NCBI GenBank assembly: GCA_018697195.1
Contig: CM031864.1
Location: 19,731,316-19,795,315 of the forward strand
DNA: 64,000 nt
Direction of reading: 5' to 3'
Source of the DNA: Certhia americana
Taxonomy: Eukaryota > Chordata > Aves > Passeriformes > Certhiidae
Shown here in pieces: positions 11,301-14,300 of the stretch. A program made the position numbers and the translations under genes. Numbering within the stretch: position 1 is the stretch's first letter; every line of letters starts with the position of its first letter. The notes under the pieces were generated by a model. The model saw nothing but the letters and a program-made list of their open reading frames with translations. It was not told the origin of the DNA and did no database searches.

Positions 11301-14300
11301 ATTGTAAATTGTGGCTGTGATAGATTATGGTAACACAGTGAGGTTCTTTTTTTTTTTAATTTGGCCAGTGTGAAAAACAAAGCTACTAATTTTGTTGATT
11401 TGTTTGATACTTTTTTCTTTTCTGAGGGACAGTTTTTATACTACTTTGAAGAATTAAAAGGAATTTTATTTCAATCTGAAGAATTGTTTCAGTATCACTA
11501 TAGAAGCTAAATATTCCCATGGAAGAGTGTGATATAGTAAATCAGTGTATAGTGTAGATTTTTGAGTTGGTATGGTTTTTGTTAGAATTTTTAGTGTTCA
11601 TTAGTGTTTTTCTGCTCTCCAGCAGTAGTAAATAAAATGCCACATTTTCATTTTGGTGCACATTCTTTACTAAATATATATTACTAAATATATATATATA
11701 TATACACACTAAAGTGAATTTATTTCCTTTACAGGTTCAAATGTGTACTTGAGAAGAGAGCTCATTTGTTGGGGAGACAGTGTGAAGCTGCGTTATGGTA
11801 ATAAACCTGAAGACTGCCCATACCTCTGGGCACATATGAAAAAATACACTGAAATCACTGCCAAATATTTCCATGGTGTTCGTCTGGACAACTGTCACTC
11901 AACACCTATTCATGTAGCAGAGGTACGCAAAATTAAGCACGTTTGTTATAAAGCAGCTTCCTGTCTGTGCAATAGATTCTAGAGATTTCACAGTGCAGGA
12001 CATAGGTGGCAGAGTTTACGTGGGAATGAATCTGTCTCATTGCATAAAAACAAGTTTTCTTCTCTGGTAATGTTCAGAGATGGTTTCAGCTGTGTTAAAC
12101 AGTAGAGTGGTGTAGCTATTTTATCTTTTGCTTCTCTACTTTAGCTGAAATACTGTGGATGTGGATAGGCCTGACTAACTCTTCCCTCACTGAGCTGTGG
12201 ACATAGTACAATGACTGCCAGTATCCAGTATGTCAGTTTTAGCTGAAGTCATTGCCAAGACTTGATTGAAAGTCTGACTGGTTTATTTTTTTGCCATATG
12301 TATTTTGCTATTACTAAATTAAAGAGGAAATGGTTCACTTCACAGAATTTAAAAGCTGGTAGTGAAGTCCTGCAAAAAGTTTAGTTTGGCAGGTGTATTG
12401 CTAAGACTAGTGTTTCTTGTTTCCCAGGGAGATAAGTACATCCAGAAGTTGTACTTGCCTAGTAAATTAGCTTTAAATAGGTTTGGAGTGGTGCAGCATG
12501 TCAGTGCTTAGTCTTTGTAACAGAGCTTACCTAAATCTATGAAGAGCTCTCTAAAACAAGTTGATTTGCCTACACAAGTTGTAAGTAGCTCCTAAATGCA
12601 GCCATTTCAAAACTTCTGCAATCCTTTTGTTTAGTGTTACTGTTTTTGGAACCATAACTGCAAAGGCTTAAACTGAAGTGCTGCTCAGATTTCTTAGTTC
12701 AGTAGATATCTTTTATCCAAACTTTGTTCTTGTATTTTGAGCTTAGATTTTGTTTTAAAACAAAGTAGGAATTAGTTTTAAGTCTACATAAAGTTTCCTA
12801 GAATTACTCAATCCATTAGTAATACCTGTAAAATACAACTGTGGCTTTCTGAAACTTCCATGTGATCAATATTTTTAATGTGCTGCATTTATGAATGATT
12901 CATTTATGTTCTGTTAACATTCATGTTAATGTTTGTGTATACATAGCTGACAATGGATGTCTTGCATTAAAAATGTATTATGATCTATAGGAGATGCTAG
13001 CAACAGCCAGATCAGTCAGACCTAATCTTTATGTGATAGCTGAACTCTTCACGGGCAGTGAGTACATTGACAATGTTTTTGTCAACCGCCTGGGAATTAC
13101 CAGCCTGATTAGAGGTACAATAAGCAGATGAAAATTATGAAGGATTGTCATGTATGGTTTGGAGTTTTAAATGTGGAACTAACATTGGTATGCTTTTTTG
13201 TTTTTCTTACATATTCATGTTCTTTGCTTATGCAATTACCTTTCCTTCATGTTCTCTTTAACTTCTCTGTTGTATGCTAATTCTTGGTTTTGCTTATGTT
13301 TGTGTGTCCTCTTCTATGTAACAACTTGTTTTGTTCCTTAATTTTGGCTTTCTATTTATCTTTGCTGCATGGCATTTTCCTATTGTCCAATCCCTGCCTA
13401 GCTTTGAAACTTGTCCTTTTTTGTATCTACCTTTCCCCTTTCTGTGGCTTTTTTGGCTGTGCTTTTTGCAGTACATGCTGGACACAGCTAGAAAATTGCG
13501 AGCCGATTTGTATGTAGTGGCTGAACTGTTCACAGGAAATGAGGAGCTGGACAATATCTTTGTGAATAGGCTGGGCATTACCTCCTTAATAAGAGGTAGG
13601 CTTGCTGCGTGTGTGGTCTCTTTCCAACGAGAGATTATAGATGACATGCTTTTTCCAAGAAAACCTTTTCTACAGGATTATGCACTTTAAATTACATACT
13701 CCATATAATCAGAAGTACAGGTTCTGTATTGTGACTTTTTTGATACTTGGCAAAAAATACTGTATTAGCCATAAAATAAGAGAATACCTCCTTTGTTAGT
13801 TTACAGAAGGTTAAATTTTATTTCACTTTTGATCTAGTGAAGGAAAAAGGAGTTATAGCACAGTTCTGCGATGTAAGTCCTGCATCATGTCTGTTTTTTG
13901 TTGCATGAGTTTTTTAAAGCCTGTGAGAAGTAGTTTGATCTCTGCTTTTTTATCCTTTTTTTCTAGTAGCTTTCTCTTCCTTAATACGTTATAGTAAGGT
14001 GAATATTCCAAGGAATATCTCCACAATGGAGAATATATTTGTGTTTGATTTTCTTCGTGATTAAACACACCAAAATAACAACTTCCAAATGCCAGATTAA
14101 CATCTTTGTGCGTGCTGTCCTGTGTGGTAGTTATTGTTCTGCAGACACTTAGGTATTTTGTTCTTTAGAGGCCATGACTGCCTACAACAGCCATGAAGAG
14201 GGGAGGTTGGTCTATCGGTTTGGAGGGGAGCCGGTCGGATCTTTCGTTCAGCCACGCTTGAGGCCTTTGATGCCAGCTATTGCTCATGCACTATTTATGG

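Follow-up and report, generated by a model that had tools for sequence, protein, structure and literature searches.

In Certhia americana, the gene for the glycogen debranching enzyme, AGL, contains two tandem copies of the exon that carries the catalytic Glu of the transferase site. We give a probability of about 0.87 to the reading that these exons, 14a and 14b, are an ancient tandem pair, which yields alternative protein forms in a frog, a bichir and tunas and is predicted to be spliced one copy at a time in this bird. The most likely explanation is mutual exclusion of the two exons, each of which would supply its own version of part of the transferase site, and both forms are likely to be used in this bird. 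The case is built on the anatomy and reading frame of the pair, five pairs of near-identical proteins, the single motif in 214 of the 229 listed proteins, a common branch in a tree, and 61 of 66 matched comparisons of conservation. The term 'exon 14' follows the numbering of an earlier sequence-only reading of this DNA and is retained as a label.

The AGL coding exons, as assembled, span positions 2121–31125 of the 64,000-nucleotide stretch analysed here (the window), on the plus strand, as do all exon and intron features below. The assembly has 33 exon entries, with exon 14 counted in both its copies; it lacks the first coding exon, which was not located. The Pfam domains hGDE_N, hDGE_amylase, hGDE_central and GDE_C were all matched in frame translations, with stops read as X. 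The presence of all four in one gene, together with matches to full-length relatives, identifies the gene as AGL. All AGL exons found are intact, and the assembled protein is 96% identical over its full length to AGL of the passerine Ifrita kowaldi and 97% identical to a Sylvia borin model over the best-aligned 66%. Exon 17 apparently ends in a GC donor (CAG|GCAAGA, 15385–15386), a rare type, followed by an ordinary acceptor at 15466. Elsewhere in the window, positions 34755–35583 hold overlapping open frames of 205 (minus strand) and 247 (plus strand) residues with no Pfam match, and no Pfam domain was detected in the three plus frames of 46001–61000 or in one plus frame of 32001–46998.

Exon 14a (12991–13114) has the acceptor CTATAG|GAG and the donor GAG|GTACAA; exon 14b (13472–13595) has the acceptor TTGCAG|TAC and the donor GAG|GTAGGC. 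Each is 124 nt long, is bounded by an AG acceptor and a GT donor, is entered in phase 0 and left with one base over, and encodes a 41-residue version of the same segment with AELFTG present. They lie between an upstream exon (11735–11922; the earlier exon 13, also labelled E11), which ends in HSTPIHVAE in phase 0, and exon 15 (14169–14332), which accepts either copy in frame. The intron between them (13115–13471) is 357 nt long and pyrimidine-rich in its 3′ part. The two are thus neighbouring homologous exons of equal length and phase, each with its own acceptor and donor. Identical bases number 85 of 124 and identical residues 30 of 41; among the 30 codons whose residue is unchanged, 15 carry a silent change. 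Base differences at codon positions 1, 2 and 3 number 14, 4 and 21, and the Nei–Gojobori estimates are dN 0.25 and dS 1.44, for one pair with dS near saturation. By blastn the copies are 70% identical over 124 nt (E = 1e-11), with similarity ending at the exon boundaries; the other matches between the flanks are 9–22 nt long (E ≥ 0.7). Every coordinate and figure that the sequence-only reading had given for the pair, from the exon sizes, spacing, phases and splice sites to AELFTG and the identity counts, agrees with ours, as does its estimate that about half of the unchanged codons had changed silently.

Two other origins of the pair were rejected. A separate paralogous gene was ruled out because a search for the 14b segment across the whole assembly (1.07 Gb, 652 contigs) returned two candidates, 14b and 14a, and no third copy at E ≤ 0.001. 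Duplication during genome assembly was ruled out because 39 of 124 bases differ between the copies and each has orthologues of its own. Gene conversion at the 3′ ends was also considered, in view of VNRLGIT, shared by bird 14a and 14b, and seems less likely: the N there also occurs in lizard, snake and tuatara 14b, and the bird copies differ at many silent sites.

The reading frame sets the limits on how the copies can be combined. With either copy alone, the assembled AGL frame is open for 1502 codons up to the natural stop. With both copies included, a stop follows residue 555, and with neither, residue 510. Joint inclusion and joint skipping are disfavoured through these early stops, which are certain from this sequence. 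In this bird, 14a and 14b would be included singly and not jointly. The frame would enforce this exclusivity most simply, in that messages with both copies or neither would meet an early stop and probably decay; crowding of signals in the short, AG-poor intron between the copies perhaps adds to it.

That intron also offers a different route to exclusion, in which a distant branch point near the 14a donor prevents joint splicing, as in OGDH exons 4a and 4b. The interval from 13163 to 13400 is the longest between successive AGs in the window (237, the next being 133, among 4263 AGs), and its AG-free part (13165 to 13399) is 70% pyrimidine. A candidate branch site, CTAAC (13179–13183), a consensus match only, places its A at intron base 68, 68 nt from the donor. 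No other of the 32 AGL introns is as rich in pyrimidines over its last 60 nt as the one before 14b (0.80), and the final 30 nt there translate to 10 residues, which can be compared with LWLPWLCFLQ at the same place in two lizard models (P0012 and P0013); this suggests that the tract is conserved between birds and lizards. However, the AG of a CTAG (13400–13401), a possible competing acceptor, falls downstream of the candidate branch site and upstream of the 14b acceptor, 70 nt before the exon, whereas none of the fish OGDH orthologues described in the available part of PMC7969005 has a YAG downstream of its putative distant branch points. Used as an acceptor, the AG at 13400 leads to an early stop, whether spliced from the upstream exon or from 14a. 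Furthermore, the AG-free length was matched in 9 of 5000 mononucleotide shuffles and belongs to the intron of a single species. With its tract broken by a YAG, the AGL pair is not filed under the OGDH type, although it may work similarly. We regard exclusion by a distant branch point as possible but, on this evidence, doubtful. Motifs for splicing factors, among them one TGCATG at 13366 and one ACTAAC at 13178, are present in one or a few copies per intron and were not used as evidence. The third longest AG-free interval of the window (127; 12818–12945) lies a little upstream of 14a.

Single use of the two copies, as we propose it, has direct parallels in the proteins of other vertebrates. Three protein searches, of which the best 120 of 1065, 172 and 1382 matches were listed, gave 229 different proteins. 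An AELFTG-type motif occurs once in 214 of these listed proteins, twice in six and not at all in nine; products with exactly one copy are accordingly seen in relatives. Five pairs of proteins are identical outside the exon-14 segment and differ at 11 residues within it: Xenopus tropicalis (P0031/P0034), Polypterus senegalus (P0043/P0048), Thunnus maccoyii (P0185/P0222), Thunnus thynnus (P0186/P0223) and a pair of contig proteins (P0188/P0219). The named-species proteins are gene predictions, and within each named pair the largest contig in the two records has the same size, as expected for one gene. These sequences place a and b on record as alternative protein forms of one gene in X. tropicalis, Polypterus and two tunas. 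Further pairs, among tunas and tuna-like contigs, show 1 to 7 differences outside the segment, and one between two bichir species shows 27. The proposal of the sequence-only reading, that the enzyme has two forms distinct around the transferase site, is borne out by alternative proteins of one gene in other vertebrates, and for Certhia we infer it.

From the listed proteins we cut 223 exon-14 segments, after dropping 12 entries with no motif or an abnormal upstream junction; five proteins gave two segments. A rule based on positions 1, 9, 16, 25 and 32 assigned 112 segments to class a and 110 to class b and left one undecided, so that the sharp contrast between the classes at those positions is partly built in. 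The five pairs do not depend on this rule and are therefore stronger evidence than the sorting. Two members of class a, P0196 and P0199, look like invertebrates. Among 18 proteins from contigs of 4.7–7.1 kb (16 lgn and 2 jgi, which we take to be read assemblies), the a version is present in 10 and the b version in 8; none is known to come from a bird. This set leaves out lgn P0151 and P0196 and ena P0199, P0204 and P0207, which are not clearly vertebrate. All but two of the 18 are at least 1524 residues long, P0132 and P0139 being partial. Because the AGL coding exons cover 29 kb in this bird, such short contigs with a whole coding sequence would most simply be spliced transcripts.

The exchanged segment includes the catalytic residue. 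In the Candida glabrata enzyme (CgGDE), the E564Q mutant loses transferase activity, according to the part of PMC4837477 consulted, and our alignment of 14b to chain 7eku places the Glu of AELFTG at 564. By this alignment, that Glu matches the transferase proton donor of the debranching enzyme, and a putative proton donor is present in each exon copy. Eight sequences of solved debranching enzymes were matched, and in all three alignments shown the full 41 residues of 14b are aligned. These three structures each hold one version, with the b-like Tyr in first position and Val before AELF, and none of the three is an a-form. One AlphaFold model (P0132, 34 rows) had pLDDT below 50 around the segment and was not used. 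A second, of the distant relative P0207, has a mean of 72 and falls below 50 from the catalytic Glu onward. There, the segment (539–579) covers most of a helix (534–547), a strand (552–555) and Glu 556, followed at low confidence by a loop to 566 and a helix from 567. On this model, exon choice would swap 41 residues that form a helix, then a strand ending at the catalytic Glu, and then a loop of low confidence.

Two positions close to the Glu differ most clearly between the classes. Two residues before it stands Ile in 111 of 112 a segments and Val in 105 of 110 b segments, and seven residues after it b has Glu or Asp in 110 of 110, contrasts that the class rule itself partly creates. At the latter position, 100 of the 112 a segments have Leu, Tyr, Val or Phe, the others Gln (5), His (3), Arg (2) or Glu (2). 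As 14a and 14b share the Glu and its AELFTG neighbours, both forms are likely to be active; given the contrasts at −2 and +7, they are likely to differ in how the transferase site handles the glucan chain.

A maximum-likelihood tree of 59 segments (51 distinct) over 41 columns addresses the age of the pair. Its a-class sample comprised 21 of the 112 a segments, from named-species rows, and the 14a of the window. All 22 fall on one branch (support 99/93), with lungfish, coelacanth, frogs, salamander, wallaby, tortoise, alligator, lizards, rattlesnake, bichir, gar, paddlefish, teleosts and this bird. Since all sampled a segments share a branch, they point to a single duplication, no younger than the ancestor of bony vertebrates; for both the duplication and its age, we consider this conclusion solid. 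That ancestor lived more than 400 million years ago. The view of the sequence-only reading that this is an old duplication under purifying selection is upheld, and the tree sets its age further back than that reading could tell. In the tree as drawn, a separates before the b segments of cartilaginous fish; with 41 columns the rooting is unsafe, and we claim no older age. Dating with nematode and fungal outgroups was abandoned because 41 columns are too few for safe rooting. Nematodes and the fungus have the b-like Tyr at position 1 and some a-like residues elsewhere, and with this mixture neither copy is simply ancestral.

The two forms are unevenly spread among the matches listed, where counts are of rows rather than species and each row, as the representative of a cluster at 90% identity, may conceal the other form. 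Form a was found in 0 of 8 cartilaginous fish (all b, with P0213 placed there by similarity), 0 of 7 eutherian representatives with the segment (all b) and 0 of 18 such bird representatives (all b). It was found in 1 of 1 crocodilian, 1 of 2 turtles, 4 of 10 lepidosaurs, 1 of 2 marsupials (the wallaby), 7 of 23 amphibians, 2 of 2 lobe-finned fish, 1 of 3 bichirs and 2 of 5 in the gar, bowfin and sturgeon group. The remaining 142 listed segments, from teleosts, unassigned rows and nematodes, comprise 93 a, 48 b and 1 undecided. Excluded from these counts were the birds P0007 (b-like, with an odd junction) and P0011 (no motif) and the monkeys P0076, P0083 and P0089 (no motif). The zeros are suggestive rather than proof, and that of birds does not mean absence, because the window itself contains a bird 14a. 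The statement of the sequence-only reading that mammals have one exon here has to be restricted: the seven eutherian representatives with the segment are all 14b, but the wallaby protein carries 14a. Form 14a has apparently been lost in placental mammals.

The bird rows raise the question of whether 14a is a relic in birds, readable but seldom or never spliced in, and still used in other vertebrates. No 14a form was seen among the bird proteins listed, all 18 representatives with the segment being 14b, and the 60 nt before 14a are pyrimidine-poor (0.50, among the poorest, with 3 of 31 other introns as low). However, bird 14a is identical to alligator 14a at 40 of 41 residues, and to axolotl 14a at 40 of 41, and the exon keeps both its splice sites; one would expect an exon out of use to have decayed since birds and crocodiles split. 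In addition, cluster representatives hide second isoforms, that of the alligator being a and that of Ifrita b. Conservation across vertebrates points the same way. Mean column entropy is 0.37 bits for a (68 distinct segments) and 0.56 for b (75). Across 12 matched taxa (nine of them having both forms in one species, and marsupial, turtle and snake each drawn from two species; the Megalops and Myxocyprinus forms come from different contigs), mean agreement is 38.3 of 41 residues for a and 34.6 for b. Of the 66 matched comparisons, 61 show greater similarity in 14a than in 14b, 5 show the same in both, and none shows less in 14a. By these sequence measures 14a is the better conserved copy, and a dead exon would not show such conservation. 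The sequence-only reading had named the decay of one copy in relatives as evidence that would count against it, and at the protein level no such decay was seen. We consider it unlikely that 14a is a relic in birds.

A third explanation, that some messages include both copies and give a longer enzyme or a regulated dead-end message, has in its favour the 6 of 229 listed models that hold both (P0012, P0013, P0019, P0078, P0112 and P0121) and the early stop of joint inclusion in this bird, which could act as an off switch, but we judge it very improbable in view of the exactly one copy in 214 of 229 listed proteins and in every member of the five near-identical pairs, and of the truncated second segments of P0078, P0112 and P0121, which look like gene-model repair. 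The six models differ in build. The lizard models P0012 (Rhineura) and P0013 (Varanus) join the copies through in-frame linkers of 34 and 24 residues, respectively, which read intron sequence in frame; the Rhineura linker would fit an unspliced intron of about 101 nt. The fish model P0019 has a 5-residue linker, and in the fish models P0078, P0112 and P0121 the second copy is truncated. In these six, either exclusion may leak or the models may be wrong. Separately, P0011 (Strigops) and P0076, P0083 and P0089 (New World monkeys) jump from HVAE to HRS and so omit both the exon with the catalytic Glu and the next one (124 and 164 nt, together a multiple of three); these models are in-frame forms that have no transferase acid/base.

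For the predicted one-at-a-time splicing of 14a and 14b in birds, a lead comes from overfed goose liver, where AGL is one of 7 network hubs that also belong to a set of 131 differentially spliced genes (PMC12785810). The part of that text consulted does not state the type of event in AGL, and we treat it as a lead, not as support for 14a and 14b in particular.

Taken more broadly, the sequences incline us, somewhat, to the view that AGL of bony vertebrates has held a splice switch between two transferase sites for more than 400 million years, that placental mammals lost one of them and that human research on glycogen storage disease has seen half of the system. Glycogen storage disease type III is the deficiency of AGL, which is usually taken to be a single enzyme with a single transferase site. 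A conserved second version of the site would imply a long-kept need for two modes of handling glycogen chains, such as one for the fed and one for the fasted liver, or one for muscle and one for liver. The two forms make a natural pair of enzymes about 11 residues apart beside the catalytic Glu. The human enzyme may not be modelled faithfully by that of birds, frogs, fish or marsupials, and placental mammals may have altered glycogen breakdown at a known exon.

Mutually exclusive tandem exons are a known kind of arrangement; for AGL we found no description, although database annotation lists isoforms. An AGL exon duplication is described in none of the papers listed by our searches, several of which matched far more papers than they listed (in one case 12 of 8,099 were shown) and which mostly did not extend to subscription journals and preprints. 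Term searches returned no relevant mention of AGL in PMC9741552, PMC9013439, PMC7969005, PMC5602094 or PMC1276783. An oyster paper (PMC11988029) mentions agl, by the same kind of search, for expression only, and the text of a phylogeny of the family (PMC4236520) contains neither 'exon' nor 'splic'. A term search of PMC9741552, on tandem duplicated exon substitutions in humans, for AGL, glycogen and debranching was likewise negative, as expected if humans keep one copy only.

Among known systems, the AGL pair is of the same kind as the human substitutions, which the part of PMC9741552 consulted describes as homologous adjacent exons, used one at a time and mostly ancient. Like the debranching enzyme structures (human 8ZEQ and the fungal chains; PMC4837477, in the part consulted), both versions belong to the same domain and have the same catalytic Glu. 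The closest comparison is with OGDH exons 4a and 4b, in which, by the available part of PMC7969005, distant branch points adjoining the donor enforce exclusion. On that account, both are ancient tandem exon pairs in a vertebrate enzyme of energy metabolism, both swap a functional segment, and the AGL intron between the copies has a long AG-free pyrimidine tract as well. They differ in that the AGL tract is broken by a YAG, that the OGDH pair is kept in mammals whereas AGL 14a seems absent from placental mammals, and that the OGDH exons swap a calcium response whereas the AGL exon carries the catalytic residue itself.
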